DNA of 64,000 bases. Source: Hemerocallis citrina. Its lineage: Eukaryota > Streptophyta > Magnoliopsida > Asparagales > Asphodelaceae. The stretch is taken from the NCBI GenBank assembly GCA_017893485.1, contig CM030362.1, positions 38,658,984 through 38,722,983 of the forward strand. The letters run 5' to 3'. Positions 37,851 through 63,500 of this stretch are shown here, in pieces. Numbering within the stretch: the stretch's first letter is position 1; every line of letters starts with the position of its first letter. Under the pieces are notes generated by a model. The model saw only the letters and a list, made by a program, of their open reading frames with translations. It had not been told where the DNA came from and ran no database searches. The position numbers and the translations under genes were made by a program.

Positions 37851-37911
37851 CGCATGAGATAGTTGCATCTAAACTGTTTTTCGTGCATGTTGCTGTGTGT
37901 TATCAATTTCA

Positions 37912-40900: not shown

Positions 40901-41571
40901 TGCTACTACAAACCATCTCCTCTCTTCAACCCTCACCACTTCAACCTGATCGAGCTATATGGAACCATGACATCTCTGGGTGCTTCTCGGTCAAATCGGC
41001 TTATTGTTTCTATATCAACTCTAGCCTAATTTTCCCCTTCTTTCGAGCATGTTGGAAGAATTGTGCGCCCCTAAAATGCAAAATTTTTACTTGGATGTTG
41101 TGTGGTAAGAAGCTCAACTCCAGAGAAAGACTTCATTCCAAAGGGTGGAATGGGGATATGGCATGCAGTGACTGTGTATATCATACTGAAACCACCTATC
41201 ACATCTTCTTTGCGTGCCCGAAGGCTACTCAAACATGGCTTCACTTCACAAGAGCGTTTGATATCAACAACCTGCCGGAGTCTATTTCGGAATGCTTCTC
41301 CACTTGGTGTTTTGATCACACGAAACACATATTCACACACTCATGGCATCTCATCACTATTGCTATCTGTTGGACTATTTGGAATGCTAGAAATGATAGA
41401 ACTTTTTTCAGCAAACAATCTTCGGTGGTTAAGCTGATATCTAACACTAAATTCTGATTTTCTCAATGGCTAGATTCAAGTGGCGAATCGAAGAAAAAAA
41501 ACAGAATCTTGGAGGAGCTCGGAAGGACGGGTGACAGCGACTTAATGCGACCCGATCAAGGGGGCGGCTGA
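37912..41571 (+). pseudogene. LINE ORF2: endonuclease-reverse transcriptase, three in-frame stops
   Basis: A 1220-codon frame starts at ATG 37912 (MKIGSWNVRRLGNPYKCDLI). The endonuclease shows NVVCLQESKL, LTSVYAPFE, WVICGDFNVT, RLDRFLIS and SDHCPLIL. The RT shows DKAPGPDGFSMHF, YRPISLLNCSMKI, SKRGLKQGDPLSPMLFILAV and catalytic FADD at 39967-39978. The C-terminal zf-RVT domain has FSVKSAYCFY, CAPLKCKIFTWML and CSDCVYHTETTYHIFFAC. Stops lie at 38410-38412 (TGA), 39313-39315 (TAG) and 41455-41457 (TGA); in each case the family usually has Trp (TGG). Only 61 bases separate it from ORF1. Confidence 0.92.
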
Positions 41572-42386: not shown

Positions 42387-42934
42387 TTAGACCATCTTCA
42401 ACCATGCTATCTATATCTCAATATTAGTCAAAATAGCAGATTTAAGAAGAAAAAAGAAAAATCTGCTCCAACAGAACTCGCTAAACTACTCGCCAAAATT
42501 GATATATTAGATTTAATTGTCGGATCTGATGAGTTTATATCACTAGCAAAATTTTACTTATGCTCTTTCCGCGTCTTAAAAAAAATAATAATAAATAAAA
42601 AAAACCCCAAGTTTAAGATGTGAAGAGATCGTGATCTCGGAGCGCAGGCTTCGCGCTATCACGAACTTCGCTGCATCGCGAAGCAGATCATGAGAAAGAG
42701 AATTTCTTTTGTTTGTGCTTGGGCTTGGGGTTTTTTTGTTTGGTTTTGTGCTTGTGCCGCTTGGGATTTTTTTTTTTTGCTTTTTTTGTGGTTTATTTTG
42801 TTTTGTGCTCATGCTGTTTTTTTTGTTTTGTAAAGTTTCTTCTGTATTATTTTGTGCTTGGGCTGTTTTTTTGTTTTGTAAAGTTTCTTTTGTATTGTTT
42901 TGTGCATGGGTTATTTTTTGAGACTTTAAATAAC

Positions 42935-43235
42935 GAATTTTTTCCCAAAACGCCCCATTTTTGCAAAGTTATTCCCAAACCGCCCTACTTTTTTTTTTAA
43001 TTCCCAAAGCGCCCCACTCGGTCTCTCAAAGACCGAGTCTAGTGCAAATAGACTCGGTCTTTGAAAGACCGAGTCTTGCGCTTTGAAAAATCAAAGAGCA
43101 AGACTCGGTCTTTCAAAGACCGAGTCTATTTGCACTAGACTCGGTCTTTGAGAGACCGAGTCTTGACTCTTTGATTTTTCAAATCCGCAGATCCCCTTTC
43201 TTCTTCTTTCTTCTTCTTCTCGACTTTAACCTACT
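42935..43235 (+). repeat. MULE left terminal inverted repeat with four 25-bp palindromes
   Basis: It starts GAATTTTTTCCCAAAACGCC, with two further short repeats of TTCCCAAARCGCCC. Palindromes of the form GACTCGGTCTTT/AAAGACCGAGTC sit at 43015-43039, 43051-43075, 43102-43126 and 43138-43162. A second level of symmetry (AGTGCAAATAG / CTATTTGCACT; TCTTTGATTTTTC) folds the whole repeat. Such sites are candidates for transposase binding. Confidence 0.93.
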
Positions 43236-43575
43236 CTATTTCTCTAACCCATCTTCCTAAATCTAGGCCGACCTCCTACCCACAAAATCTAATCTTAATC
43301 TAAATATATACACCAATATCTTCCTAACCCTCTAACCATCTCCACTATAACCCACTATAACAACCCAAAACCCTTATTTTGAAAGATCCATTTTTCTGAT
43401 TTTTGCTAAATTTGGAGCGGATCGCAACTTCAACTCTTTTAACGAAATCTATACGGCTCTGTTCTTGACGCTTGTGAAGGTATGATGAATATTGGCCTTT
43501 AATTTTCTGAAATTTGGTATAGATTTTGTTTGCGTTTAGATAATAACTCGCATATTTTAATAAATATACCTAGGT

Positions 43576-46245
43576 ATGGATCTTGAGATTCCTATTTGGT
43601 TATACTTTGGTGGTGAAATTATTCTTGATCCAAAGATTGGTAGTAGTTATAGTCATTTGGAACCGGAAATAGTTTGGGTACCCCGTACCATTACATTTGA
43701 AGAACTAGTTGAGAAAATCTATGAAGTTACTAATTGGGATAGGAATGAATGGAATGCGAAAATTTTAGCTCGATACGCAGCAGGAAGAGGAGGTGTTCAG
43801 TATTTTATGACAGTGCCCGTACCTACTGATAATGCGCTGAAGTCATTGATTGCTAGGACATTTGATCCGAATTGTGCTTGGTCTGTATTAGAGTTATATA
43901 TTCAGCAAATTCGAGTTGTAACTCCTCAGCCACATGATATCCCCAGTGCAAGCTTCATGCGGGTAGCACCTACACAGCAGTCGAGGCCTAACCCCGATCA
44001 ATCTTCACAACCAAATCCGGTATCCTCACAAGAGAACACCTTCACAAATACAACAATTCCGGATTCTGTAAATGTTGAGCTGCCACGCCAACCAAGCCCG
44101 GTTCCTGACTCTGTTCCAAATGACAGTATGTTTGAACTCTTTCAAAATGCAGTGATTAACAACAGCTTATTAAGTGATGATGAAGAAGAGGAAGAAACAG
44201 ACGATGATGAAAGTCTAGAAAGTGATGATGGAGAAGAAGACGATGATGTAGCTAATGTAAATCCTTCGAACAATAGTTCTAATGCAGTGAGAGTTACTGA
44301 TAGGTATGCTAATGTTAACGCTCATGTTACGGAGGAGATGGCTGAAGCTGCTAGAGTTCCCCCCTATCCAGAAGAGTCTTCTGGTTCATCCAATGTAGAC
44401 GAATTTTACGTTGGACAGGAGTTTGTTAGTAAAGACTCCCTTCTGCATGCTGTGAAGGTATATTCTATCAAGAAACATCGTGAATTTGTCACATTGAAAA
44501 CATCACCGTCACTATACACTGTTAAATGTAAAAAGGCACCTAGAAAACGTACAATAGAGGAGATCGTACAAGGTCCCCCAGGAGTAAGTGATGGTGGATG
44601 CCCTTGGAGATTACGAGCTATTGTTCCAAAAGGAGGGAGAAATTTTGTGGTGAAGAAGATAGTCGGCCCGCATACTTGTACGAATCCCACGTTGAATCAA
44701 GACCACTGCAAAATTGATGCTAACCTTGTCAGTAATTTGATTTTGGGTGTGGTGAAGAAGGATATTGCTGTATCACCGGGGGTAATTATTGAGATTGTTA
44801 AAATAGAATATAATTATCAGATTTCATATAAGAAAGCTTGGAAAGCAAAGCAAAAGGCAATTGAGAGGTTGTACGGTACCTTCGAAGAAGCATACACGAA
44901 GTTGCCTTTTCTACTAACAGCAATTCAAGCAGCAAATCCAGGTACCGTTGTCCACTGGGACAAATTTGAGTCTAGCCCCAGCGAGGAAACATTCAAGGGA
45001 GTATTTTGGGCATTTGGTCCTTCGATTGAAGGTTTCAAGTCTTGCAGACCGGTTATTAGTGTAGATGGAACTCATTTGTACGGTAAGTACAAGGGTTGTT
45101 TGCTAATTGCTGTTTCCCCGGATGCGAATGGTTGCTTATTTCCTTTTGCATTTGCATTGGTTGATGGAGAGAGTATAAATACGTGGACATGGTTTATGAC
45201 TTGCGTCCGGCATTATGTCACCGATCGCACTGAGTTGTGTGTTATCTCGGATCGTCATGCTGGTATATTGTCTGCTATGGATTTGCAAAACGGTACTTGG
45301 AACGAACCGAATGGATTTCATCGATATTGCATGCGTCATTTTGCCACAAATTTTTTTAGTAAATTTGGTAGCAAGGCATTGCGCAAGAAGGCCAAAAGTA
45401 TAGCTTGTCAACACCAACCCAAAAAGTTCATGGCCAAACTCGCCGAACTTGAAACCGTCAATGTCGAGGCGGCTAACTGGTTGAAAGAGAAACCGGTTCA
45501 GAAATGGGCACTTTATGCAGATGAAGGTCGACGATATGGAATGATGACTACGAACCTGTCAGAATGCTTCAATTCAGTACTGAAAGGAGTCCGTAGTTTA
45601 CCAGTAACTGCAATTGTTGAGACGATTTTTTTACGTCTCAACTCTTACTTTACTACTCGTCGACAGGAAGCTAATAAGCTATTATGTGAAGGGAAAATTT
45701 TTGCTAAACGAGTACAAGATGTAATTGATATTCGCCGTGAAAGAGCAAATCAACATGTGGTTACAATGTTTCATCATCAGCCTGGAATTTTTTCCGTCAA
45801 AACTGGTATACGCATGGTAAATGGAGAACGGAAGGGTGGGAACTTGCACACCGTGAATTTGGGTACGAAAACATGCACATGTATGAAGTTTCATCTATAT
45901 CATATTCCCTGTTCTCATGTATTAGCAGCCTGTGCTTATCGTGCAATCGATCACAAGCCTTATGTTGATAAATTTTACCTTATCACGTCATTAGCACAAA
46001 CTTGGGCTCCTGTGTTCAGTCCTATTCTAGATGAAGCATATTGGCCTACTATCGACGGTCCACGACTTGTACCGGATTCTAGTTTGCGACGGTCACGGAA
46101 AGGCCGGCCTAAATCCACGAGAATACGCAACGATATGGATGTGAGAGATAGTTCTAGCAGGGGAACAAGAATGAAATGTTCAAGGTGCGGGTTGGAAGGA
46201 CACAACAAGCGTCGATGTACTAACATAGCATCTCAAAACAGTTGA
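43576..46245 (+). CDS. MULE transposase (mudrA-like), 889 aa, intact
   Basis: It should bind and excise the element ends. The N-terminus (1-115) resembles the PB1-like domain found in many plant MULE proteins. An acidic linker follows (about 200-230, EEEEETDDDESLESDDGEED). The Mutator DNA-binding domain spans about 275-375, with FYVGQEFVSKDSLLHAVK and the WRLRA...HTC zinc pattern. The DDE core has VDGTHL (D497), CVISDRHAG (D559) and NLSECFNSVLKG (E663). A SWIM zinc finger, CTCMKFHLYHIPCSHVL, lies near 767-783 and a CCHC knuckle, CSRCGLEGHNKRRC, at 868-881. There are no internal stops. A 94-bp intron (43480-43573, GT..AG) may lie just before the ATG. It converges with the mobile domain gene. 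Confidence 0.95.
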   Translation: MDLEIPIWLYFGGEIILDPKIGSSYSHLEPEIVWVPRTITFEELVEKIYEVTNWDRNEWNAKILARYAAGRGGVQYFMTVPVPTDNALKSLIARTFDPNCAWSVLELYIQQIRVVTPQPHDIPSASFMRVAPTQQSRPNPDQSSQPNPVSSQENTFTNTTIPDSVNVELPRQPSPVPDSVPNDSMFELFQNAVINNSLLSDDEEEEETDDDESLESDDGEEDDDVANVNPSNNSSNAVRVTDRYANVNAHVTEEMAEAARVPPYPEESSGSSNVDEFYVGQEFVSKDSLLHAVKVYSIKKHREFVTLKTSPSLYTVKCKKAPRKRTIEEIVQGPPGVSDGGCPWRLRAIVPKGGRNFVVKKIVGPHTCTNPTLNQDHCKIDANLVSNLILGVVKKDIAVSPGVIIEIVKIEYNYQISYKKAWKAKQKAIERLYGTFEEAYTKLPFLLTAIQAANPGTVVHWDKFESSPSEETFKGVFWAFGPSIEGFKSCRPVISVDGTHLYGKYKGCLLIAVSPDANGCLFPFAFALVDGESINTWTWFMTCVRHYVTDRTELCVISDRHAGILSAMDLQNGTWNEPNGFHRYCMRHFATNFFSKFGSKALRKKAKSIACQHQPKKFMAKLAELETVNVEAANWLKEKPVQKWALYADEGRRYGMMTTNLSECFNSVLKGVRSLPVTAIVETIFLRLNSYFTTRRQEANKLLCEGKIFAKRVQDVIDIRRERANQHVVTMFHHQPGIFSVKTGIRMVNGERKGGNLHTVNLGTKTCTCMKFHLYHIPCSHVLAACAYRAIDHKPYVDKFYLITSLAQTWAPVFSPILDEAYWPTIDGPRLVPDSSLRRSRKGRPKSTRIRNDMDVRDSSSRGTRMKCSRCGLEGHNKRRCTNIASQNS

Positions 46246-46311
46246 AACTTCATTTTGTGTTTCCTATTGTGTTTGTAATATTTATTTCGAAATGAACACT
46301 TAGTTTGGATA

Positions 46312-46540
46312 GTTGTGTTGAAGTGGTTGTTTAGTTGTGGTGAAGTGAGTCTTGTTGCTGAGGTGTGGTGAGTCTTGTTGCTGAGTTGTAGTGTATTTTG
46401 GTACTAAGTTGGTTTGTTGTTTGGTATTTTGAAGTGGTTTATTAGTTGTTTTGTTGTGATTTTGAGTTGTTGGATGGGAATTTTGAGATGTTTGTTCAGG
46501 CATTTGAAGAAGAGGTTGTTGTTTTGAAAGATTGAAAAAC
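46312..46540 (+). other. Low-complexity GT-rich spacer after the transposase
   Basis: Irregular repeats of TTGTTGTGGTGAAGTG-like units precede the large inverted repeat. They are roughly the reverse complement of the CACCACAACAAACCACTTC units at 47190-47320, so they loosely extend the inverted repeat. Transcript ends of the transposase gene probably lie here. Confidence 0.55.
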
Positions 46541-47186
46541 ACTCAAATGCTGGCTGTAGCTAAAAAAAATTCACAGCAAGAAGACTCGGTCTTCCAAAGA
46601 CCGAGCCTAGTACAACTAGACTCGGTCTTTCAAAGACCGAGTCTTGTTGCTGTGTCTTTTTTTGGTATCAGACTCAAGACTCGGTCTTCCAAAGACCGAG
46701 TCTAGTTGTTCTAAGCTCGGTCTTTGGAAGACCGAGTCTTGATTCTGATAAACTCCAGAGCTCTGGAAGATTGAAAACAACACAGTCGGTTTTTTAAACA
46801 CCGCTCTAAAAACACTTAGACTCGGTCTTCCAAAGACCGAGTCTTCAATGTGAGAAGTTTTGATTGAAGACTCGGTCTTTGGAAGACCGAGTCTAGGTGT
46901 TTTTAGAGCGGTCTTTCAAAGACCGACTGTGTTGTTTTCAAACCTCCAGAGAGCTTGTTGGGCTCTGGAGTTTATGAGATTCAAGACTCGGTCTTCCAAA
47001 GACCGAGCTTAGAACAACTAGACTCGGTCTTCGGAAGACCGAGTCTTGAGTCTGATACCAAATAATAGACACAGCAACAAGACTCGGTCTTTGAAAGACC
47101 GAGTCTAGTTGTACTAGGCTCGGTCTTTGGAAGACCGAGTCTTCTTGCTGTGAATTTTTTTTAGCTACAGCCAGAATGCTGAGTGT
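46541..47186. repeat. ~640-bp central inverted repeat containing about ten 25-bp palindromes
   Basis: The left arm (46541 to about 46850) starts with ATGCTGGCTGTAGC; the right arm (about 46863-47186) ends GCTACAGCCAGAATGCT. The arms pair along almost their whole length, with a spacer near GTGAGAAGTTTT. Within them are ten copies of GACTCGGTCTT(T/C)..AAGACCGAGTC (starts near 46582, 46618, 46678, 46713, 46819, 46868, 46985, 47021, 47080, 47118) and two degenerate ones. The same palindrome occurs four times in each TIR. A read-through transcript from either convergent gene would form a long hairpin. Confidence 0.92.
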
Positions 47187-47189
47187 CAC

Positions 47190-47325
47190 AACAAACCACA
47201 ACAAACCACTTCTTCACCACTTCTTCTTCACCACAACAAACCACTTCTTCTTCACCACAACAAACCACAACAAACCACTTCTTCTTCACCACAACAAACC
47301 ACAACAAACCACTTCTTCAGAGTTA
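47190..47325 (+). repeat. Minisatellite CACCACAACAAACCACTTCTT
   Basis: Irregular tandem repeats of CACAACAAACCACTTCTTCT lie right of the central inverted repeat, within the MULE. Confidence 0.85.
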
Positions 47326-48014
47326 TCTCATAAACCTTATTAGAGTATCATTAGAGTTATCTCAATGATACTCAAGCCTTATTCCCAATTTTCACAACTT
47401 TTCATCTCAGTGGTATAGAAACCTTACTAGAACAAACCCACATCATAATTTTCAATAACAACATTCACACCAATCAACAAAATCACAACCTTTTCGCATT
47501 ATTGGTAATAGGTCTTATTTAAAACAAACCCATATCACAATTTCATCAAATAGCATAAACTCCAAAATGGGAAAAACACATTTTGGGATCTGAACTACTC
47601 AAGTTAAAACCTTAGAAAAAAAGAAGAAGAAGCAAATATTACTACATTCACAACCCTGTCAACAAAATCACAACCTTTTCACATCAATGATACTCAAGCC
47701 TTATTTAGAATAAACCCATATCACAATTTTCACATCAATGATATGAGATAACTCTTCATATCACATCAATGATACTCAAGCCTTATTTAGAATAAACTCA
47801 ACAACCACTTCTTGACACACCAATATCACCACTCCAACAATTTCAACCACATCAACAATTTTAATCACTTCATCTCAAACAGAGGAACATTTCAAAAATA
47901 CTACATCAACACAGCTACAAGATCAGCAACCAAGTTAAAAAAATAAAAAAACAACACTAAAAAAAACTACATTAAAACATACTACATTAGGAATACTACA
48001 TTGAAAATATTACA
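47326..48014. other. MULE spacer, 3' side of the mobile domain gene
   Basis: AT-rich DNA with dispersed direct repeats (TCAATGATACTCAAGCCTTA occurs three times, 47360-47785; AACAAAATCACAACCTTTTC twice). It presumably holds the 3' UTR of the minus-strand gene. No open frame is of interest. Confidence 0.6.
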
Positions 48015-50184
48015 TCAAGGGTCTGGTGTGAAGAAAACTGGGGGTCTTCTGTGTCGTCTATGACGATGGGGAGTTGCCTGTGTCAGTGCAGACAACGGAA
48101 TCTCCGGCTCTTCTTCAATCTCATCCCCAACGAGCTGTTCTCCATCACCTTGTGCTTCAATATCAGGGTCTGCTTCTTGTTCGTCTTCCGAATCACTTCG
48201 CGGTTGATGTGGCGGCCTATGAACAGTTCTCTTTCGTCGTTGACCGGTACGACCGCCGGTTCGATGTGTGGGGGTCCTAAGTATCGCATCTAATGTTGCG
48301 CCCTCCCCCACAATATCAGCTTGTGCACGGCAACACGATAACATCTCCCGTATAGTAACCTTCGACTGATCGGCGATGTTGCTATTTAGCATATGAGCAC
48401 ATTTCTTGGCAAGGGACCAAGTCTGGGTCAACTGAGAAACATGAAAGGTTGAATTAGATGCACATAAATATATAAAAACATATCGATATATAAAGTTTGA
48501 AAATTTAAAACGAAATATTAAAACTTACAAAGCCACGAATAGCGGATCCCTTTGGTTGGTACATCGGCAACCTCACCGAATGCTCATCTGCTGGTTCGGT
48601 CCCTGGTCGACGTATCGGTACAACGACTCCGGCAGGAGACTGCAACGGTGGGGAAATGAACCGTCTAGTGACTCTCTCGTACCAAGACAAGTACACACCA
48701 TGCAAGGAGAGGTCAAAAGGTGGGGTGTCAATGATGATTTCTTCGAAACGGTTAATGTTCCATCTCTGAACGTATTCGAAGAAGCAAGTGGCCCAGTTGT
48801 GTCCCGGTGTACAGCCCATTCCAGTGATGTTATGCATATCGGCATTGAATGGCACGGTAACTGGAATCCCCTGGTGCAGACCAAACTGCCGTAAGACCCT
48901 ATCGGGGTAGTAGAACTCAACAACCCCGAAGTTGATTAGAGGTGCTTTCGTGAGCCACAAATTACGCCTGAACGTACAGATAGGTGGCAGCCGAATCAAT
49001 CGCTCCTCTGTGTACGGGGTCCACACCACACAGTCGGCGGCCAACCTGTCCAACTCGTCGCGGTAGTATGTCAAACACCTGTTGGGGTTGGCCGTCCATG
49101 TCATTTTTCCTGTCCAATACACACCAATCGGAGGTAGCATGTCTATATCTTCAGAAAGAACTCTCCAATGTTGGGACTGGATCCGTATTACGGGCCGACC
49201 TACGTGAATCCGTTCCCAACTCCATATTTGCAGTAGAATTAGAGGTCCATTCATCTGGTTCGAACCTATACTGCACAGACACAGACTCCGATACAGTGCC
49301 GATAGAATTGCACTGCCCCAACTGAAACGGCGGATCCTACCTATATCGGCGATTAGGGGCAAGAACATCAGTGCTACGGTATTCCCGGTTGAGTTCGGAA
49401 ATAGGACCGTGCCGAATAGTGTTAGAACATACGCCCTAAAGTAGCACTCCACCTCCGCTGCAGTTGAAGCGTCATTCAATCTATTTTTGAACGTATCCTT
49501 CAACCACTTTAGGCGGATAAATTTCCCATTTATCGCGCCAGCTTCCACTGCAACCCCTAGGAACTCCTCCACGAGATACACGGGATTGAAGTCCATCGAT
49601 CCTGTCACTGCCTCTCCATCGATTGGAAGCCCGGTTAGTATAGCAACGTCTTGTAAAGTCACCGTCATCTCCCCGACTGGCAGGTGAAATGAGTGTGTCT
49701 CGGGCCTCCATCGTTCAAGCAGTGCTTCGAGAAGTGGACGATCGCACTTGATGGATGTCATCATGGAAATACCGTAGAACCCACAATCTCTAAGCAACTC
49801 GTGTATGCGTGGGTGCACAGGTAGCGGATGCCCAGTCCTAAAACGGCACTCCGTAGCCTCGCCGTTCCAAACATACTGCGATCGATGCATCGGCTGGAGA
49901 GTGAGAAGTGAAGGGTCGAGTGGTCCGGGGCCTGCAGGAGGGATGTATGAAGACGAAGGGCCCGCCTCATTTGGATTGAATTCAACCTATATAACAATAA
50001 CATTTACATCAGTAGACCGATAAATATAATACAATTCTATTAGAATCAACATTTAATTACTTACATTAGTAGCATCGGTAGAAGCACGACCACCACGACG
50101 ACCACGACCACGATCACGTCCACCGCGATTACGTGGAGGTCTACTACTTTCTCCTACCTCGCGGTTACCCCTTGTGCGTGCCAT
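48015..50184 (-). CDS. Plant mobile domain (PMD) protein, three exons, 664 aa
   Basis: The intron-exon structure is my reading. Exon 1 is 50184-50065 (MARTRGNREVGESSRPPRNR, then an RG/RD-rich run). Exon 2 is 49986-48529 and exon 3 is 48431-48015. All introns have GT..AG borders (GTAAGT donors) and phase 0, and the joined frame is open. Exon 2 carries the plant mobile domain: HPRIHELLRDCGFYGI, THSFHLPVGEMTVTLQDV, ILTGLPIDGEAVTGS, then WLKDTF and PLIADIGRIRRFSWGSA. This fold is shared with MAIN/MAIL1, nuclear proteins affecting silencing and genome stability in Arabidopsis, and occurs in some transposons. Exon 3 ends in an acidic, then His/Arg-rich tail. Its role in the MULE is unknown. Confidence 0.85.
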
Positions 50185-51402
50185 TTACAGTAGACTACAA
50201 ATCCTACAAGTTTAACAAAAATGTTATTAACTACACAAAAGCTAGATATAAAAACAAATTATATATAACAAAGCCGTTCATTCTCTAATTTTAGCAAAAC
50301 ACTAGAGTATAACAAATTCAACAAGTTCTATACATAACCTAGACTCTATAAAATTCTAAAAAACTAGATTCAACACATACTATATGGAATAATATACAAA
50401 ATTGATTCAACAACAAAATTCTATTCAACAAGGTTTCAATAACTCTAACAACTCTTTCAACAAAATTCTATACAACATTGAACTCTTTCAACTCAATATT
50501 TCTTTCAACTCTTTCAACAGAATTCTATTCATTCCAACTTCAACTCTTTCAACTCTTTCTTTTTGAAAATCAATAACTCAACAAAATTTGGGTATTAATA
50601 CTAAAATTAACTCAACTATTTCTTCAACTATTTCTTCAACATATACTATTTGTTTTTTAACATCAATAACTCAACTCTTTCATTTGGAACATCAATGCTA
50701 AGCAAAATTAACAGTGAAAATAACATCAATAAACTAATGAACTAGAATTTGGAAGATAATTAAATGTGTTTGTTTGGAACATAAATTCATTTGGAACATA
50801 TCTGTACAAGTGAGTTCCATCTACACTAATTGGAAGTGAGTTTATTGATGTCCCCATAATTGTACAAGTGAGTTCCATTTGGACAAGTGATTTTCTTCAA
50901 GTGAGTTCCATCTAATGAACTCACTTCTACAGATGGAACTCACCCGCGAAACAAACAGCAAAATTCATTTGGAACATCAATAAACTCAACTCCTACTAAT
51001 CTTCTTTGTCAACAATAAGTCAAATTCAACTAATGAACTTCACAATAGCATCAACACTAACACAAATTTTGCAAAGGAAATGTTTAAGAAATATACCTAA
51101 CAAGTGGGAGAATCCGAAGACGAAGATGAAATTGGCAAGAAGAGCTTGACCAGTACAACCGAAATCTTCCAATTATGGGTATTCGGGGTTTAGGGTTTAA
51201 AGAAAGAATCGATTTTGGGGAATAGGATTTGGTAAATTGGGTATTCAGGATTTAGGGTTTTAAGAATTGGGGGAATAGGATTGGGGAAAATCGAAAATGG
51301 AATAGAGATTAATTGTTTTAGGGGTGTGTATCGATCGATTGAAGGCGTAATCGACCATAAAATTGGCAACGACGGTGGATGCGATGAGGAACAGAGAGAA
51401 GA
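50185..51402 (-). promoter_or_regulatory. Presumed promoter and 5' region of the mobile domain gene
   Basis: The region between the PMD start codon and the right TIR is AT-rich on the plus strand, with CAACTCTTTCAACT-type repeats (50440-50700) and repeats of GTGAGTTCCATCT (50810-50945, in both orientations). No coding sequence is seen. Its promoter function is inferred from position only. Confidence 0.4.
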
Positions 51403-51703
51403 AGAAAATAAAATCTAATAAATCGAGAAGAAGAAGAAGAAAGGGGATCTACGGTAATAAAAACGCCTAAGTCAAGACTCGGTCTCTCAAAGACCGAGTC
51501 TAGTGCAAATAGACTCGGTCTTTGAGAGACCGAGTCTTGCTCTTTGATTTTTCAAAGCGCAAGACTCGGTCTTTCAAAGACCGAGTCTATTTGCACTAGA
51601 CTCGGTCTTTGAGAGACCGAGTGGGGCGCTTTGGGAATTAAAAAATAAAGTAGGGCGGTTTGGGAAAAACTTTGCAAAAATGGGGCGTTTTGGGAAAAAA
51701 TTC
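51403..51703 (-). repeat. MULE right terminal inverted repeat with four 25-bp palindromes
   Basis: It is the reverse complement of the left TIR with few differences through about 230 bp, then patchy. Palindromes start near 51476, 51510, 51563 and 51597. The end is GGGAAAAAATTC directly before the TSD. Confidence 0.93.
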
Positions 51704-52139
51704 TTAAATAACTTGCATGGTTGGAGTGCGAACTTTTTTTGTTAGCCAAATTACCGAATTGTTCTTTATTTTGTATTCTTTTGTATTGTTTTGTGTTGGG
51801 CTTTTTTTTTTGTTTTAAAATATCTATAACTAGTCAAAATAACTAGTATTGTTAGGGTGCAGATTTTTTTTACTAATCAAATTATTTAATTGTTCTTCAT
51901 TTTGCATATCCTAGCAAGGCATTTTGCATATCCTAGCAAGGCAAAAATGCTTTGGATATGCTCTTAGCAAGTGATATTGTTGACAATATAATCTCTAACT
52001 TGGGAAATAAATTTTGTAAGCATAAAAATATGCATCATGTTTCTTAAATTAATAGATCAAGTATTATATTTTTTGAATATTTTACGGGTACTGTAAAAAT
52101 CTCATGGGTTGTAGCGGAGATACATTTCAAGTGGCTGAT

Positions 52140-52801: not shown

Positions 52802-52810
52802 CAGAACTGC

Positions 52811-53565
52811 AAATTTTTGACCAAAATGACCCACTTTTTGAAAGTTTTTACCAAAATGACCCATGTTTGAAAGTTTTAATCAAAACGACCCACTCGCTAA
52901 CTGAGTCAGCGACCCTAATGAATACAGGGGAGTGTATACTTGGTATTTTTCTTCAGGTTTCACCACTTAGAAAAAAACTGAAGAAAAAAGTCAAGTATAC
53001 ACTCGCTATCTCAGTTAGCGACCCTGTTTTCACTAGAATCATTAACTCGGTTAGCAAGTGCGGTACAAATGAATTGAGGAAAAATATATTTTGGCTTGAT
53101 TATAAAAAAATCATTGGGTTTAGAGTTGCTATCTTAGTTAGCGAATGTGTTTGTACCACATTTGCTAACAGAGATAGCGAGTATGTTGACTTGAAGAAAA
53201 AAATATTTTTTTATTTAAACTCGCTATCTCAGTTAGCGAGTGTGGTACAAACACACTCGCTAACTAAGATAGCGACTCTAAACCCAATTCGTTTGTACCA
53301 CACTCGCTAACTCAGTTAGCTACCTTAGTGAAAACAAGGTCGCTAATTGAGATAGCGAGTGTATACTTAATTTTTTTCTTCAGGTTTCACCATTTGAAAA
53401 AAAATTGAAGAAAAGGCCAAGTATACACTCGCTAACTCAGTTAGCGACTCTGTTTTCACTATGGTCGCTAACTGAGTTAGCGAGTGGATCATTTTGGTAA
53501 AAACTTTCGAAAGTGGGTCTTTTGATAAAAACTTTCAAAAAGTGGGTCATTTTGGTCAAAAATTC
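52811..53565. mobile_element. 755-bp MULE-type MITE with nested 21-bp palindromes
   Basis: A perfect 9-bp duplication CAGAACTGC lies at 52802-52810 and 53566-53574. The ends are AAATTTTTGACCAAAATGAC and, on the other strand, GAATTTTTGACCAAAATGAC. The layout (T-rich end with repeated TTTTRACCAAAATGACCCA, then palindromes) copies that of the big MULE, whose end is GAATTTTTTCCC. Palindromes of the form CTCGCTAACTSAGTTAGCGAG occur many times and the element as a whole folds back on itself. It has no real coding capacity; the 173-codon frame across it is an artefact. Confidence 0.9.
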
Positions 53566-53657
53566 CAGAACTGCTGGTGCTAAAAAGCGATACAACTCTG
53601 ACCTATTAGTTTACATAATAATATTAATTTCAAAATATTCATGAAACTCTTGGCTAA

Positions 53658-54341
53658 GAGTATCTGTATTCGTTCCCTATATTTTCAAAATTTGAAGAAA
53701 AAAAAAAGGAACAGTACTCGTATATATTTAAGAGACGATCGAGGAATTTCCCAAATATAAAAATTGGAAGATAATCTAGCATCCGATCCAAAAAAATTCT
53801 CGGGCGCAAGATGATCTTGCGTATGAGCAATTTAAAAAATTAAAAAGAAGAAAAAAGTATCAGACACAAGATCATCTTGCGCCCGTTAAAAAAAAACTGA
53901 AGGAAACGGACGCAAAATTATTTTGCATCGGAAGAAATTTAAAAAAAAAAAAAAACTAAAAACAGTACTGACGAAAGACCATCTTGTGGCCGTTGTTTTT
54001 TTCCCCTAAATATATATATATATATTTCTCTATGGAATAGGGTTTATAGGATTGTTTATGCATATAGTCTATATTCGAGATTGGTTTGATTATTTTTATC
54101 AAGGATTGAGATGGAATGGGTTTATATGAATTGTTATATGTACGTTGCGTACAAATTTTTTTTGGTGAATGTGTTGGACTCAAATTTTTAAAAAAAAATT
54201 AATGGCTGAAATTGGTTTGAATTTGTTAGATCCACCGTTCGATCAAATTTTGAGTTTTTAACGACTACACGTCCAACTCAAAATTTCTATTTATATTCCT
54301 CAAATTTGGAAACTTCGAGTCTTAACGCACTAAAGATACTC
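53658..54341. mobile_element. GAGCATC-family MITE, element E (684 bp)
   Basis: The ends are GAGTATCTGTATTCGTTCCC and the reverse complement of CACTAAAGATACTC, flanked by TAA on both sides. Internal ~21-nt palindromes share one arm type: GGCGCAAGATGATCTTGCGT near 53800, GACACAAGATCATCTTGCGC near 53860, and GGACGCAAAATTATTTTGC with GACGAAAGACCATCTTGTGG in degraded form. No coding capacity. Confidence 0.65.
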
Positions 54342-54351
54342 TAATAGGTTA

Positions 54352-54514
54352 ACTATTGTTATTGGGGATCTTGTGGACTTTATTCTGCTGAGTTTATTAA
54401 AGAGATGTTTATTCCTGATCGTGAAATTGGAGTGCAAGAGGTTATACGTTTTGTTTATCATGAGAAATCTGAAGCTACACTTCTCAAACATGACGAAGAA
54501 GATGCTTCAATTTA
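54352..54514 (+). pseudogene. Possible Ulp1-type (C48) protease C-terminal remnant
   Basis: About 50 codons are open to a TAA at 54512-54514: YCYWGSCGLYSAEFIKEMF, then IPDREIGVQEVIRFVYHEK. The SCGLYSAEFI segment resembles the catalytic-Cys region (DCGxYxxxFI) of SUMO/Ulp1 proteases, which plant MULEs often carry. It lies in the gap between MITEs E and A. The similarity is short, so the call is tentative. Confidence 0.35.
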
Positions 54515-54537
54515 AATAAATGGAGAAGTAACTATTA

Positions 54538-55226
54538 GAGCATCTACAATGGTTTGCTATAATATATAGCAAAATGAGAAATAACAAATAGTAAAAGCGA
54601 CTTTCGTCACAGTGCTTCGTTTTTTAAATTATGAGAAAGAATTATTTTTTAATCGGACGGAACATCTTGTTCCGTGCCAAAAAATATTTTTGATTAATTA
54701 AATAATAATTAGTTATTAAATAGTAATTAGTTAATTTGTTATTGATTTAAATAATACTAAATATTTATTAAATACTTACTGAATAGTGATTAGAGTGTTA
54801 TTTAGTGGGTTAATGGGTGAAAGTGACAGGTTTCTTCTTCAAACGGGACATGTCCAGTTTGTCCAATTTTGAGATCAGACGGGACATGTCCCTTCCATTT
54901 CTTTCAGGTTTCTTTTTTTTTATTTTTTTATTATTACTGAGACGGAACAACATGTTCCGTCTGATATCTTTTAAAATATATATAAAATTCGGGACAAAAC
55001 AACTTGTTTCGTCCAATGCGATAAAAGAGAATAGAGGGGGGGGGGGGGGAAGGGGACGAAACATGTTTTGTTCTCCCTATAATTTGATAATCGTCAATTC
55101 GTTTCTCAAATATGAGAACGAACTGTAGTGATTTTGGCATAATATGGCAAAATAGCAAACGACTGCAGACCTATGTTTTTCATAATATGGAAATATGGCA
55201 AAGATAGAAAACGATTATGGATGTTC
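54538..55226. mobile_element. GAGCATC-family MITE, element A (689 bp)
   Basis: The ends are GAGCATCTACAATGGTTTGC and, reversed, GAACATCCATAATCGTTTTC, flanked by TTA (54535-54537; 55227-55229). Internal palindromes use GACGGAACA..TGTTCCGTC arms, for example GACGGAACAACATGTTCCGT near 54942 and GACGGGACATGTCCC near 54878. No coding capacity. Confidence 0.8.
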
Positions 55227-55229
55227 TTA

Positions 55230-55943
55230 GAGCATCCACAGTCGTTTGAGGTTTTAAAAAAAATGAAAAAATGCTTATTTTACCTTTCCATTTCGACGAA
55301 ATGCTGCAGTCGTCCAAAGGCAAAAAATGTATTTTTTCGATAAAAATGAAACAGACGAAACATTGTCTGTGATTAAAAAATCATTTATATAGTCAGAAAT
55401 CGAGAAAATATTAATAAAATATACGGGACTTTGTCCCAAAAGGGAAAAAAATTGCAAAATAACCGTCCGGGTTTTAAGGATTTTTTTTGCAAAAAAATTG
55501 CAAAAACATTTACAAAATTGCAAAACCAATTTATAAATTTGCAAAAAAAATTAAATATTTGCACCCAGTGACCAATGATGGTAATTTGCAATTTTTTTTA
55601 ATAAGGAATTGGGACCCAATGGCCTGGACGATGTTTCGTCCAGTCATTATATGCATATTTCTGGGTTTTTTCTTTGTTTTTTTAATTTTAATTCAGACGA
55701 AACATCATGTTTCGAAACATCATGTTTCGTTCGATTATTTAAAAATATAATTAAATAATCGAGACGAAACATGATGTTTCGTCAGGCATAATATGCATTT
55801 TGCTATTTCGAATGCTATTTATACCTTTCTATTGTAGTCAAATACGTAAAAAATGGAAAAATAGCCAACGACTGTGTCCGCTATAGTACTCCTAAAATGC
55901 AAAAAATGACACACAAAAAAAAAACAAACCACTGTTAGTGCTC
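55230..55943. mobile_element. GAGCATC-family MITE, element B (714 bp)
   Basis: The ends are GAGCATCCACAGTCGTTTGA and, reversed, GAGCACTAACAGTGGTTTGT, flanked by TTA at 55227-55229 (shared with element A) and 55944-55946. Palindromes use GACGAAACAT..ATGTTTCGTC arms (near 55700-55780). No coding capacity. Confidence 0.8.
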
Positions 55944-55946
55944 TTA

Positions 55947-56336
55947 GGAAGTATATTTTCTTAAAACAAAAAATAAGAAAAAGAGAAATCAAGCTATTTG
56001 TTTGAAGACAATAAACGGTTTTACTCTTCACTGAAAATTTTGGTTAGTTCAGCTCTTATTTTAACGAAGCGGATTAAATATTGTTATGCTAGTTACTAGT
56101 TTACATTCTAGATGAACTTCTCCAAAAAAATAACACTAATGTTAGCTTTTTTGAGTTTAATTCAAGTTAATATAACACCACCACCAAGATCACATTTAAT
56201 TCAAGTTAATTATGTGTTTAACCTTTTTTGTTAAAAAAAACTTGGATCCCACACTGTTAGTATAGTGTTTATGATAACAGATATTTATAGATCCAACACT
56301 GTTAGTAATGCTTCAGTCACTATCAATTTCACTACC
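55947..56336. other. Short intergenic stretch between MITEs B and C
   Basis: AT-rich; it contains CACACTGTTAGTATAGTG and CAACACTGTTAGTAATG, a short direct repeat (56253-56310). No gene was recognised. Confidence 0.5.
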
Positions 56337-56339
56337 TTA

Positions 56340-57115
56340 GAACATCCACAGTCGTTTTTCTCATTTGTTATAAAATGACAGCTACAGTAATAGCAATTGG
56401 ATGAGGATCGTGCAGTGGTGCTTTGCTAAAATTTTCTCATTTAGATTAGAGACGGGATATGATATTCTGTCCCTCTTTTTTTAATTTTAAAAAGACGTAG
56501 AACGGTATATGTTCTTCCGGACGGAGAATGATTCCCCGTCTCTCAAATAAAAAAATAAAAAAAAAAAATGGAAAAGCTTTGGACAAAATATCCATGCAGA
56601 AAAATAAAGTTTACATGGTATAAACCTACTAACTGTGGATGCTCTTAGAATGAGGCTCTTGGACTTTATTTTTCTGGTTTGGTATAACAAAAATGGTATA
56701 ACAAAAAAAAAAATTGGAAATAGGGAGGGACGGGGATTGATACCCCGGCCGGGGTATCATTCACCGTCAGAGGGATTATTAAAAAAAAAAATTATTTTTT
56801 AAGGGGGAGAGACGGGGTATCATACCCCGTCCGGGGTATGTATCCCCGTCCGACCATTTTTTTTTAAAAAAAATTAATTAAAATTATTAAGACGGGATAT
56901 GATCTTCCGTCTGAATCGATTAAATAATCATTAAATCGGAGGGACGAGATATGATATCCCGTCCTTTATAATTTGAGAAACTGCATTTCGTTTCTCATAT
57001 TTGAGAAACAAGAATAGAACGTTTGTTATAAAATGGTAAAATGAGAAACGATTGCAGAGGTTCGTTTGCTATAATATGGCAAAATGGCATATATAGCAAA
57101 CGACTGTGGATGCTC
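56340..57115. mobile_element. GAGCATC-family MITE, element C (776 bp, possibly composite)
   Basis: The left end is GAACATCCACAGTCGTTTTT; the right end, reversed, is GAGCATCCACAGTCGTTTGC. TTA flanks both sides (56337-56339; 57116-57118). An extra right-type end (ACTGTGGATGCTC + TTA) at 56632-56647 suggests two elements in tandem or an internal rearrangement. Palindromes use GACGGGATATGATATCCCGT and GACGGGGTATCATACCCCGT forms. Confidence 0.75.
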
Positions 57116-57118
57116 TTA

Positions 57119-57779
57119 GGTGGCATACTCCTATTGGAGAGTTTCCCACCTACTGTATCTTTTGCTACATATTGGAGTGTGTCATCTAAGATAGTGAAGA
57201 GAAATATGATGAAATTGATAGTGGATGTAGCATTACTCAATCTCTAAAGATAAATTTCACTAAATTATACACAGGTTTTTACCAATTTGCAGATGACTAT
57301 TGTCCATCTACTTTTTCGCGGGTGACTATTGTCCATCTACATTTTACCAATACACAGGTTTATACCAATATCTACTTTTTCGCGGGTGACTATTGTCCAT
57401 CTACTTTCTTGTTGCGGATTAGTGTACTCCGTTAAAATCAAGTATCACATGTTATCACACGACAAGTTTAGGTTATTTTTGGTATGTTTACCCATGGCTG
57501 TTTTTAGTGTTTAATAAATTTATTTTCCCTAATCAAATATGTTTATTTTACTTAATTAAAATTGCAAATATTTTTGAAAAGTATAAAGGGAAAACAAAAC
57601 AAAGAGAAGATGATGAGATGTTTTGGAGAGGTTCATTTTAATAACTAAAAATAAGTAAAAGGTAAGCTGTAATAAGAAAGAGAATGGGAGCTTATTCAGA
57701 TTAACAGAGAGTTAAAATGGTCAATCTCAGTTAAGACTGATGCCGTGAAGACATAGCTAGTGAACCACAATTACTTTAA
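57119..57779. other. Intergenic stretch, no gene recognised
   Basis: It contains a short direct repeat (TTCGCGGGTGACTATTGTCC at 57316 and 57380, with a third partial copy at 57290). Otherwise it is AT-rich. Confidence 0.55.
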
Positions 57780-58706
57780 GGGTACGTTTGGTACACGGTA
57801 ATATACAAGAAAATCTAGAATTACCCTCTGATTACCTGGTTTGGTAAAATATGAGTATAATTTTGAAAGAATTTTTAAATTTCCATGGGAATAAAAATTC
57901 TTTTTTATGAATGATATACATTCCTCTTTAAAAGGGTGAGATTTGTGGATTCATTCACATAAGAAATAACTGAGATTATCATGTTACCAAATCGCCCTAC
58001 AGATTTTTGATAATCTTTTTGCCTTATCATATTGCCGCTATATGTTCCCTCCAGCAAATTTGTTACTCTGCCTTATGAGGATGAGATTTGTGCATATTTA
58101 TATATAAATATGAATATCCAATTACAGATCGAACAAAATTAAATAAGTATGATATATGTTTTAGTATAATGTATCAATTTTAACAATAGTATCCACCATT
58201 ATTGATTAAAAAATTGAAGGGAAAATCCTCTGCCTACTAAGTCAAAAATAATATATTTCATTGATAATTATAATTCATGTATGCCTAAGATCATGTATTT
58301 GTACCGCGTGCATTTCATCTTTTCTTTTTGCTATTTGAAATATATTAGAATCATAATGTAATTTTTTGAGTCATCTATTTGTTACTGTACTCAAGTTTTA
58401 TAAGATATATTAATATTGGTTTTGCATGTGTCACGCATATGCATGGATTACTAAAGTAGATAATAGTTATATTGTTTCTTTTATAAATAAAACCAAAAGG
58501 GTACTTTTGGTAATATCTACTATAGCGAAGGATTGATGTGAATGAATTGGTCTATATTAAACACAGTATTAAAATCTTTCCTGAAATGCAATGTCTTGTA
58601 CCATACGCAGTATTGCAACATTCATGATAATCATGATTCATATCCTCACCTTCACAAAAATCCGTCTATTCCAAGGAATTCATCAATCCGCATACCAAAC
58701 GCCCCC
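57780..58706. mobile_element. PIF/Harbinger-like MITE, 927 bp
   Basis: The ends are GGGTACGTTTGGTAC and, reversed, GGGGGCGTTTGGTATGCGG, with the GTTTGGTA core characteristic of PIF/Harbinger and Tourist-like elements. TAA flanks both sides (57777-57779; 58707-58709). Repeats such as GTGAGATTTGTGGATTCATT match the general AT-rich body of such elements. It has no coding capacity. Confidence 0.85.
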
Positions 58707-58709
58707 TAA

Positions 58710-59033
58710 AAGGTATAATATACCCAACTGTAAAAATAAAATATGGGTATAGTATTTTTTTTTAGAAAAAAAATATAGATATAGTTATCCGCAAATTGGT
58801 GAAAACTAGGTATGGTTTAGTGAAATTTACCCTATCTCTAATTTTATAATGGGGGAAGGCCTTAGTGTCATTTGCAAATCTACCAACGTGTGCAACACAC
58901 GTGCATAATTATTATAAAGGAGATTTCAGGTTCGAGTCTTCCCTACGTCAGAATTTTTATCTTTATTTAAAAAAAAAAAATTAAATATGCATCGCACTTG
59001 TAAATTACTAGTCTGGATGACTTGTAACACAGC
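58710..59033. other. Intergenic stretch with a dispersed CACGT repeat end
   Basis: Contains CAACGTGTGCAACACACGTG near 58885, then CAGGTTCGAGTCTTCC and GCATCGCACTTG. This resembles the 35.6-kb region (CTGCACGTGCTTTGCACGTT followed by CTCGAACCTGAGACCTC). It is likely part of a dispersed non-autonomous transposon. Confidence 0.4.
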
Positions 59034-59036
59034 TTA

Positions 59037-59844
59037 GAGCATCCACAGTCGTGTTTCTCATATGTTAAAAAATGGCAGCTACAGTAGTAGCAAATAGCGA
59101 TGTTTGCTGCAGTGGTCGTTTGCTATATGTTTCTCATTTTTTAGAAAATATTGCGCGGGACGGTAGAACATTTTCCGTCTCATTTGAAATAAGCGAGCGA
59201 CGGTATATGTTATACCGTCTCATCGTTTAAAAATAAATTAAAAAAAGTTAATTACTTATTAACTATTAAACTATATTAATTAAATAAATTAAATAATATA
59301 ATAATAACTAAACCTAATTAAAAACTAACTAAACCTATTTAACTACACCTAACCTACCACTAAACCTATTAAACTATAATAACTACTGTGGATTGGTCAG
59401 CCGGTATAACATATACCGGCCGGTATATGTTATACCGTCCCACCATTTTATTTTTTATTTTTTTTTATTTTTTATTTTTACACAAAATCTGACCGTTGGA
59501 TTGGGAAAAAAATAAAAAAATAAAAATAAAAATGAGACGGTATAACATATACCGAACGGTATATGTTATACCGTCCGACCCACTTTTTTTAAATAAAAAA
59601 AAAGGGGGATGGTATAACATATACCGGACGGTATATGTTGTACCGTCTTTCAAAATTTGAGAATCGCAATTCTGTTTCTCATATATAAGAAACGAATATA
59701 GCATGTTTGCTAAAAAATGACAAAATAGAAAACCACTGCAGCGATCTATTTGCTATAAAAATGGCAAAATGAAAATTATAGCAAACCATTGTGGATGCTC
59801 TAAAATGGCAATTTGCCAAATATAAGAAACAACTGTGGATGCTC
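59037..59844. mobile_element. GAGCATC-family MITE, element D (808 bp)
   Basis: The ends are GAGCATCCACAGTCGTGTTT and, reversed, GAGCATCCACAGTTGTTTCT, flanked by TTA (59034-59036; 59845-59847). At least five copies of GACGGTATATGTTATACCGT-type palindromes, some as head-to-head pairs (59400-59440, 59533-59577, 59609-59648). It is the MITE closest to the ABC transporter gene. No coding capacity. Confidence 0.82.
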
Positions 59845-59847
59845 TTA

Positions 59848-60547: not shown

Positions 60548-63500
60548 TCATCTTTTCTGGAAATTGAACATCTTGATTGCAAATGCAAATACAACGGCGA
60601 AGAGTACTGTGAAACCGACCATTGCGATCGCAACATACCCCAAAAAGTCGTGTCTAAACCCAAAAAAGTCATGCAAAAAATCCTGCACGCTCTTTTGATC
60701 GTCTTCAAGCATAGTCGTGTAATCTCCAAATTGTGAAGCCACCAATCCATACAAGGTCCAAGCAACCGGGCATGCCCAAGAATACCATCTCCACCATACC
60801 GGAATTCTCTGCAACCAGCCACAAATTTCTTAGTTCAGTATCTTAGTTAATGAAAGTGTTGAAATGAACAAGTGAAGAGTAGAGAAACTTACAGGTCTAG
60901 GGATCAAGTAGCCAGCAAAAACATTCCATATGAAGTAGAACGCAGACGAGACTATGGCAGCAATGTCACTATTGGGTGTCATAGCAACCGCCATCATTCC
61001 ATAGAATGTGAAGTACAAGAAGGTGAAGTACATGAAGAACAAGTACCAGAGGAATTTTGTGACAGTCCATTCGAATGAGATGCAACTATAAACGATGACT
61101 CCATAAACGAGAGTTTGAAATAAGATGTGCGGGATCTCTATCATTACCTGCAAATAGAAGGAGACAAACAATGTAAGGGAAATGGGTGAAAAGTAGAGAC
61201 ATATTGATGTATATATTTTTTTATTTTATGCTCTAGGTTAGAACCTGGGCATATGCATAAGGGAGAGCAGAATACATTCCAGCTGCCTTCTCTCTGTAGA
61301 AAACTGTTCTCTCTACATCTACGATAGGCTGCACGGTTTGGCCATTCTGGATTCCGATGAAGAGAACTGCACCATACATTGAGCCAAGAGAATTGAAAAG
61401 ATCTTGTTGTGTGGTCCTGAAACAAATCAAAAATAAAGATCGATGAAGTGTGTTAGTCTCTGACATCGAATACAATCATGAATGGACCGGTAAGGAATTA
61501 CTTTAAGAACTTACACTTTTTTCCCGAGTCTCCAGAAAATGGATCCGAAAATGAGGGCAATGACGGTGGTGAAGAAAATTCTCGTCGCAGTGTAGGATGG
61601 ATTGCGCCAGTAGGACTTGTGTTGCTTCCATAGGCAAGCTAAGCATTGACTGAAGAAGGATTGGGAGTACTTGGTTGGGAAAAACAGGTCATTTGAAGCA
61701 GGGGGACGAGTGCTCAGTTCTCTGATCATAGCTTTATTTCTCCTGTAAATTTGCATTAAATTAGCATGATCACCAATTCTAGTGTTGGTTTCAATTCTCT
61801 CTCAGTGTCGAATATGTTTGAATGCATGGGGATGTTCACTTACTGGTAGAGATCAGAGTTTCTGTAATATTCAGAAAAGTTGATATTAAGGATATCTTCT
61901 TGTGCTTGGGTGGTCACTTCCAGCATCCATGTCGCGGGATTATACCTTTCTTTAATTTTTCTAACCCCGTTAATATCCTAAAACAGAATCAAAGGTAACG
62001 GTCGGATGAGAATTGGTTGTTTAAACTTTTTAAGGAAGAATATTGTATGCTATCCATTTCATCACGAAGACTCACCTCAAAGTACTTGATCAAGTGGCAC
62101 GATTGGCTACCCAGTGGCCCAACATATATCTCTTCTCCACCTCGTTTCATAAGGAAGAGCTGCAGTACATGAAAGATGGAGATCAATATCAATAGTATCT
62201 TTAGCTGTATACAAGGAAAATTGCAGTCTCAATTTAAAATTCTCACTTCATCAAAGGCTTCAAATATGTCGATGCTGGGTTGGTGAATTGTGCAAACTAC
62301 AGTCCTTCCCGTGTCCACAGTGTTTCTAACTGTCCGCATAACAATTGCTGCAGCCCTTGCATCCAATCCAGATGTTGGCTCATCCATAAATATAATTGAA
62401 GGGTTGGCAACGAGCTCGACTGCAATGGTCAGCCTTTTCCTTTGCTCGGTCGATAGCCCATTCACACCTGGTAGTCCCACTAGTGCTCCTCTCAATGAGT
62501 TCAATTCCACTAGATCCATCACCTCTTCAACAAACATCTGAATTGACCCAAATATATGTTAGTTTTAAGTCCAAACGCAAAAGATTTATCAAGAAATCTC
62601 CTCCTACTAACCTCTCGTGCTCTGGAATCAACTTCAAATGGTAAGCGAAGCCACGCAGAGTAGATGAGAGATTCATAGACTGTAATGTGTGGCGAGTGGA
62701 TGTCATTCTGCTCACAATACCCAGATATCCGAGCAAATGTGTCTTGGTTCTTGGGATACCCAGAAATGGAAATGTCTCCGTCTATATGGCCTCCAGTCTT
62801 CCTTCCAGCCAAAACATCCATTAGGGTCGTCTTTCCAGCACCGCTAACACCCATCAGTGCTGTTAAAACACCCGGCCTGAATGCTCCACTGACACCCTTC
62901 AGTAGAACCAACCGGTCCTCCAAAACTCCTCTCTCTTTCATTTCCTGGAAATAAAAAATGGGTTCTTTTTAGACGTCGTGCTACTCTTGTACTCATAATA
63001 TATATGAGGAGTTTAGAAACTGATTTTACCTGTGGCATGTCCACAGAGTAGCTGACATTGTTGAAGGCGATTGAAAGAGGAGTGAATGGAAGTACCATTC
63101 CTCTTTTCTTGATCTCTGTGGTGTTCCTTCGAATTTGATCACCACCTGCATATTTAATTTACCTACTTATTTCAAATTTTTCGACTAATCTGTCATTTTA
63201 TAATAATGATGAGCTAGTCTGAGATTGACCTGTGGTTACTGCCCTGGCAGAATCGGTTCCTACAGGCAGTAGTGCTACATTTTCTCCAGTTCGGTTCGCA
63301 TGCTTCTCCCTCAATTCCTCTTCGGTTACAGTTACTTGACCTTTTCCAAGTGCTGCAGAAACCATATTCATAAGTTTCAAGTATGATAACATATTTGGGT
63401 GAAAAATAAATGCTATTATTGCCGGTGTTGGGGATACTCACGGTCTAGCCAGTCAAGAAAGAGAACAAAGAGAATGTTGAAGAGGAAAATGTATCCGATA

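Follow-up and report, generated by a model that had tools for sequence, protein, structure and literature searches.

Arrayed 21-bp palindromes with a constant frame and family-specific inner letters in MULEs and MITEs of Hemerocallis citrina

The window analysed here is a stretch of 64,000 nucleotides of Hemerocallis citrina DNA (assembly GCA_017893485.1, contig CM030362.1, positions 38,658,984 to 38,722,983). It contains an autonomous Mutator-like element (MULE), a non-autonomous MULE relative, and five miniature inverted-repeat transposable elements (MITEs), A to E, all of which carry several palindromes of 21 bp. The outer letters and the centre of these palindromes are largely constant, whereas a few inner letters, here called the code, differ between families. 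The autonomous MULE (42935-51703, no strand assigned) has a MULE transposase, long terminal inverted repeats (TIRs, 94.7% identical over 284 columns), and a perfect 9-bp target duplication, TTAAATAAC, at 42926-42934 and 51704-51712. The transposase, on the plus strand (43576-46245), comprises 889 amino acids and contains PF10551, PF03108, and PF04434. A second gene on the minus strand (48505-49890) encodes a protein of 461 amino acids with a plant mobile domain (PMD), which has a predicted VANC fold and is the candidate reader of the palindromes. The 19 palindromes, of type CTCGGTCTTTSAAAGACCGAG and code GTCT, comprise four in the left TIR (43017-43160), eleven in the middle of the element between the two convergent genes (46585-47139), and four in the right TIR (51478-51621). 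Arm letters 3-8 are identical in 38/38 arms. Palindromes make up the spacer between the genes (46539-47186), which forms a large inverted repeat of 324 columns at 92%.

The non-autonomous relative is 755 bp long (52811-53565), directly adjoins the MITEs, and is flanked by the 9-bp target duplication CAGAACTGC at 52802-52810 and 53566-53574. It has ten sites of type CTCGCTAACTSAGTTAGCGAG at 52893-53484, some of them degenerate, with the code CTAA or CTAT; these and the 19 sites of the autonomous MULE were listed by hand. End alignments between the two elements span 88-126 columns at 67-73%, with palindromes at matching places, and the code is switched at these orthologous sites. Across the four right-TIR sites, arm positions 5, 7, and 8 agree in 1 of 24 comparisons, whereas positions 2, 3, 4, 6, and 10 agree in 39 of 40, the central base in 4/4, and the DNA outside the palindromes in 101/157. 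In the left TIR of the short element the code positions agree in 1/18, the frame in 29/32, the centre in 1/3, and the outside DNA in 98/163. The palindromes are often paired 36 bp apart, both in the two window MULEs and in the MULE ends fetched from the assembly. The ends 42935-43015 and 52811-52892 open with about three tandem units of about 30 bp (CCCAAAACGCCCC-type), which abut the first palindrome. CpG is depleted outside the palindromes (5 vs 12.6 expected in the short element, 60 vs 111 in the non-coding DNA of the autonomous one) and not depleted inside them (17 vs 12.6 and 39 vs 31). This contrast is not taken as proof, because the numbers are small and the motif itself fixes CpG.

The assembly of the window (3.78 Gb, 701 contigs) contains 2,073 matches to the MULE end pattern. 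Forty such ends were fetched and one incomplete locus (L111; L numbers denote fetched loci) was dropped, which with the two window elements gives 41 ends. The codes among them are GTCT (22), CTTT (12), CTAA (4), and CTAT (2), and one end (L093) is palindrome-free by the rule applied. CTCG...CGAG pairs are exactly 21 nt long in 80 of 85 cases. The code distance, out of four letters, is 0.13 within an element, 0.08 between elements of the same code, and 2.02 between elements of other codes. At the first site, agreement in the upstream DNA, the frame, and the code is.81,.92, and.48 for 362 pairs of MULEs with different codes, and.92,.97, and.99 for 268 same-code pairs. One further MULE, L131, has the 9-bp target duplication CCCATACCT on both sides.

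Next to the MULEs lie the five MITEs, none with an assigned strand. MITE E (53658-54341, 684 bp) has TAA on both flanks, ends GAGTATC...GATACTC, and sites at 53803, 53863, 53909, and 53970 with the code CA.G. The others all have TTA on both flanks. MITE A (54538-55226, 689 bp) has sites of mixed codes at 54656, 54941, 54993, and 55055, the last of them degenerate. MITE B (55230-55943, 714 bp) has the code AA.C at 55696, 55711, and 55763. MITE C (56340-57115, 776 bp) has GG.T and other codes at 56451, 56520, 56729, 56748, 56811, 56891, and 56943, and repeats its right end internally at 56644 (TGTGGATGCTCTTA), for which reason it may be nested or composite. MITE D (59037-59844, 808 bp) has the code GT.T at 59159, 59199, 59400, 59419, 59536, 59555, and 59627. 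Its right end is duplicated as a 44-bp unit in tandem (59758-59845); the inner copy ends at 59800 with TAA, which leaves two possible right ends, flanked by TAA and TTA. The 3-bp TTA/TAA target duplication, the TIRs, and the lack of a long coding frame are features of PIF/Harbinger MITEs, and no open reading frame of at least 150 amino acids begins inside any of the five. Outside their palindromes CpG shows no depletion (observed/expected 1.02-1.56).

A preliminary description of this DNA had proposed these five elements as one family of 684-808 bp with shared GAGCATC-type ends and TTA/TAA flanks. The elements are real and belong to a larger phenomenon than was first described. The shared ends hold for A to D, whose end regions align well past the terminal bases. 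MITE E is a separate family, and most of its other copies align from base 8, with 77-84% identity (best 40 of 1522 candidates). The palindromes of about 21 nt in every element, also part of that description, are borne out: at a minimum of 8/10 pairs there are 22 of 21 nt (E 4, A 4, B 3, C 6, D 5), as against a summed shuffle mean of 1.3, and the GACG frame is missing from 3 of the 22. The common scaffold of the arms is GACG-NNANAT-S-ATNTNN-CGTC.

The arms had further been described as alike within elements and different between them. Over 25 sites selected by their ends, the inner arms differ by 2.00 of 6 letters within elements and by 3.23 of 6 between them (permutation p 5e-5), and the contrast survives the omission of E (p 2e-4), D (2.2e-3), or B (2e-4). 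For 30 half-site units the values are 1.04 and 2.14 of 3 letters (p 5e-5). The uniformity is strong in B, D, and E and weaker in C and in A, which has the three arm types GA.C, GG.C, and AA.C. In a comparison by position, from which two sites that were not 21 nt long were dropped (23 of 25 kept), positions 5, 6, and 8 differ most between elements (0.72, 0.61, and 0.81, as against 0.21, 0.12, and 0.29 within), and at positions 1-4 and 9 the difference between elements does not exceed that within them. The 3'-most sites of A to D share one place in the alignment; C and D have their own arms there, and in A the site is a degenerate one similar to the site in B. Concerted evolution of an internal cassette, as first proposed, stands as a description. 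The similarity of the palindrome flanks is near background, so the homogenised unit in A to E is the palindrome only, and gene conversion of a larger cassette is therefore unsupported.

The 22-nt MITE end occurs in 2,628 exact copies in the assembly. From the genome 88 loci were taken, 8 by similarity to D, 30 by a pattern requiring GACG after the TIR, and 50 by the TIR alone, the last in genome order on contig C1, and the total sample is thus not unbiased. Both ends are present in 74 loci, and with window elements A to D there are 78 elements, which contain 325 interior palindromes (average over ten shuffles, 14.9). Removal of MITE D as a duplicate of L003 leaves 77 elements, 72 of them with at least two framed sites. 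They are mostly 0.5-1.0 kb long, with TIRs and a 3-bp TTA/TAA target duplication. The palindromes were selected at a minimum of 8/10 pairs, and their symmetry is thus partly due to selection. The counts of GACG...CGTC pairs in the 77 elements were made without selection for pairing: 227 of 247 pairs with a total length of 17-26 are exactly 21 nt, and their inner letters pair at 66-93%. Element DNA (55 kb) contains 295 framed palindromes, as against 67 in 167 kb of flanks, which may contain further elements. The most frequent site spacings are 52 bp (21/228) and 19 bp (12/228). Four B-type ends lie at a regular spacing of about 2.43 kb at C2:245198094-245205449, apparently a tandem array of a MITE-containing unit. 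The MITE TIR pattern has no match in a reference collection of genome contigs; two matches in viral contigs were judged to be chance after their surroundings were inspected.

The within- versus between-element comparison gives the same result in the genome copies: 72 MITEs and, independently, the 41 MULE ends support arms that change jointly within elements and diversify between families. Twelve MITE clusters were built on palindrome-masked sequence, with one representative each (60 palindromes). Among the representatives the code differs by 0.59 of 4 letters within elements and by 2.32 of 4 between them (p 2e-4). Positions 5-8 differ at 0.51-0.63 between clusters and 0.13-0.25 within, and the difference at positions 1-4 and 9 is nearly equal between and within. 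In all 72 MITEs the code distance is 0.74 within an element, 1.56 between elements of the same cluster, and 2.79 between clusters. The codes seen include GGGT, AAAC, GTAT, GATG, CAAC, GGAC, AGAC, ATAC, and GAAC. Pairs from different code groups with a backbone identity of.75-.80 (112 pairs) keep the frame at.95 and agree in the code at orthologous sites at.46; at.85 backbone identity or above (32 pairs) their code agreement is.58. The code agreement is.84 for 171 same-group pairs at.80-.85 and.82 for palindromes inside one MITE (oriented elements). On a tree of the end regions the eight code groups need 8 changes, as against a shuffled mean of 42.

A neutral process might produce similar patterns without any reader, if hairpin-forming palindromes were corrected and copied by template switching and the arms thereby became symmetric and homogenised. 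The nesting of palindromes within palindromes in the MULE and the mixed-code elements such as A and L053 fit such a process. It explains poorly the fixed length of 21 nt and the bias of the central base (in the 72 MITEs, 294 of 300 palindromes have C or G there). It also leaves aside why the frame stays while the inner letters alone switch, why the flanks in A to E are not homogenised, and why the layout is common to two superfamilies, and it is quite improbable as the explanation.

The sites might instead serve a host protein, either an activator or a silencer, or a small-RNA pathway, with the elements recoding to gain or escape its action. A shared host factor could explain the layout common to two superfamilies, and escape from silencing has been proposed as a driver for VANC targets (PMC10398659, available excerpt). 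However, a single host factor is a poor fit for many family-specific codes, and among the mismatched pairs G-U is not enriched relative to C-A (17 vs 16 in the window, 52 vs 72 in the 72 MITEs). This lack of enrichment disfavours RNA hairpins, and the matched small RNA raised in the preliminary description is accordingly not favoured. Host-factor or small-RNA sites are just as improbable as the neutral process, if not slightly more so.

The proteins of the MULE bear on the identity of a reader. The PMD protein matches PF10536 at 269.3 bits (curated cut-off 34.9), and its predicted fold matches VANC21 (complex structure 9lnj). DUF1985 is unlisted for it at E<=0.01, and in the PMD protein of L131 it scores 19.8 bits, below the cut-off of 35.1. 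The transposase matches PF10551 at 60.2 bits (cut-off 27.6) and has a Mutator DNA-binding domain and a SWIM zinc finger. These domains, and the location of sites in TIRs and near ends, agree with the strongest rival explanation, in which the palindromes are transposase sites needed for transposition and the codes follow the transposase (the MULE transposase or, for the MITEs, a PIF/Harbinger transposase or its Myb-like helper). However, 11 of the 19 sites of the window MULE lie in the middle of the element, and across a code switch (L131 vs the window MULE, one pair) the transposase is 83% identical and the PMD protein 70%. In addition, L132, a PIF/Harbinger element with Myb-like and DDE genes, has neither the MITE TIR nor palindromes of this kind. 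Transposase binding is possible but rather unlikely. In the pair of L131 and the window MULE, the PMD gene has diverged at third codon positions more than twice as far as the transposase gene, a possible sign of module exchange between MULEs. The assembly has very many PMD candidates (23,271 and 19,735 at first look), and 92 scored ones are near-identical to that of the window. Elsewhere in the window there are reverse-transcriptase, zinc-knuckle, copia-type, and ABC-transporter fragments (35829-41457, 7444-9685, 15247-16263, 27207-28169, and 62519-62941). By its reverse-transcriptase, MULE, PMD, and ABC-transporter reading frames, the window has the look of plant nuclear DNA.

Several known systems resemble parts of this arrangement. 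VANC/VANDAL of Arabidopsis (PMC5735166 and PMC10398659, as far as the available excerpts go) is likewise a lineage of MULEs in which a less conserved second gene accompanies the transposase, and has many short, family-specific motif copies in non-coding regions that change together; the predicted fold of the second protein here matches VANC21. In contrast, the motifs here are odd palindromes of 21 bp with a constant frame and variable inner letters, dispersed or paired; the second protein is a PMD protein, with DUF1985 below the cut-off or unlisted; the TIRs are long and not degenerate; and the design recurs in MITEs of another superfamily. The likeness to VANC/VANDAL is one of anatomy, and the MULE is not filed as a member because DUF1985 over its cut-off, same-orientation arrays, and degenerate TIRs are all lacking. 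MAIN/MAIL1 and the PMDs encoded by transposable elements share PF10536 with the window protein. In the available parts of PMC7156037 and PMC8616336, element-encoded PMDs are proposed, in a review, as a counter-silencing strategy, and the promoter motif 'DOWN' is only hypothesised as a target of the MAIN/MAIL1 complex or of another factor; unlike this, the candidate targets here lie inside the PMD-encoding element itself. PIF/Harbinger-related MITEs are alike in size, TIRs, and target duplication, but the arrays of code-bearing palindromes set the present elements apart.

Repeated short protein-binding motifs near the element ends are also characteristic of En/Spm and Ac/Ds; to our knowledge, these are not 21-bp palindromes recoded per family. 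A literature search gave no account of such palindromes among the matches listed, and none of the listed matches to the letters of the TIR or of the palindromes was a transposon paper on this topic. As far as the literature was searched, a palindromic code in MULEs and MITEs would be new.

A matched binding protein, the other partner raised in the preliminary description, is favoured in view of the fixed 21-bp frame, the C/G centre, and the MULE-encoded protein with a predicted VANC fold. The observation in that description is confirmed and its interpretation partly supported. The chances are about even that the palindromes are bound by a protein in the service of the element, sequence-specific and probably of two-fold symmetry, with the element's own PMD protein the likeliest reader in the MULE. 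A length of 21 bp corresponds to two turns of B-DNA. A dimeric reader would contact both turns, recognising the frame (GACG/CGTC in MITEs and CTCG/CGAG in MULEs, with the central C:G pair) in all families and the replaceable code, about four inner letters per arm at positions 5-8, specifically; the array of sites would provide density. By analogy with VANC, the PMD protein would bind the arrays of the TIRs and of non-coding DNA and would release no family but its own from silencing, and the MITEs would be served by a putative partner. When a lineage switches readers, the code would change jointly at most sites of an element, and either selection site by site or copying of 21-bp units may bring this about. 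Reader and site specificity would shift together, possibly under pressure to escape silencing or to avoid cross-talk with related elements. The sites with their fixed length, the division into frame and code, the switch at orthologous sites, and the PMD gene with its predicted fold are observed; we infer binding, a dimer, anti-silencing, and PMD rather than transposase as the reader. A wider proposal is tentative and has a clearly lower probability: that transposon PMDs are VANC-fold readers of a 21-bp frame with a code of about four letters, that recoding splits a lineage into private self-recognition channels, and that one type of lock is common to MULEs and PIF/Harbinger-like MITEs.

Several points weigh against a family-specific PMD reader. 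The identity of the PMD protein to VANC21 is 11% in the alignment, the fold likeness shows no function, and a PMD profile compared by sequence with PDB chains gave none at E<=0.1 and one unrelated chain at 0.87. The divergence of the PMD protein is spread along its length and is known from one element pair. The VANC21 motif has 9 bp, occurs in same-orientation arrays, and is not described as a palindrome in the available excerpt of PMC5735166. The palindromes of L131 read CTTTCT between the genes but CTTTTT in the TIRs. Several codes occur together in L041, L053, L054, L056, L075, L081, and L088 and in window elements A and C, and among the 78 MITEs four have no interior palindrome and one has a single palindrome. 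The autonomous partner sought for the GAGCATCCACAGTCG MITEs, and a PMD gene in one, was not found among 150 scored of 4009 DDE_Tnp_4 candidates. On C1 below 95 Mb none of ten DDE_Tnp_4 matches from that scored set, and none of three PMD matches (117 of 19,735 candidates scored), lies within 10 kb of the listed TIR places, 100 in the first comparison, as judged by eye. The many near-equal-scoring genome matches to PIF/Harbinger genes suggest a recent burst of another family.

The locus yields a concrete hypothesis, namely that the PMD is a DNA reader of VANC fold, with candidate targets in the same element, naturally recoded variants that can act as controls, and very numerous copies to analyse for co-variation. 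If the wider proposal is true, host PMDs such as MAIN/MAIL1 would be related to such readers and may bind DNA via the same surface. The hypothesis would widen sequence-specific anti-silencing beyond VANDAL elements to a further MULE lineage, and perhaps also to MITEs. The elements would then constitute a natural experiment in which a DNA-binding protein and its many sites change specificity jointly.

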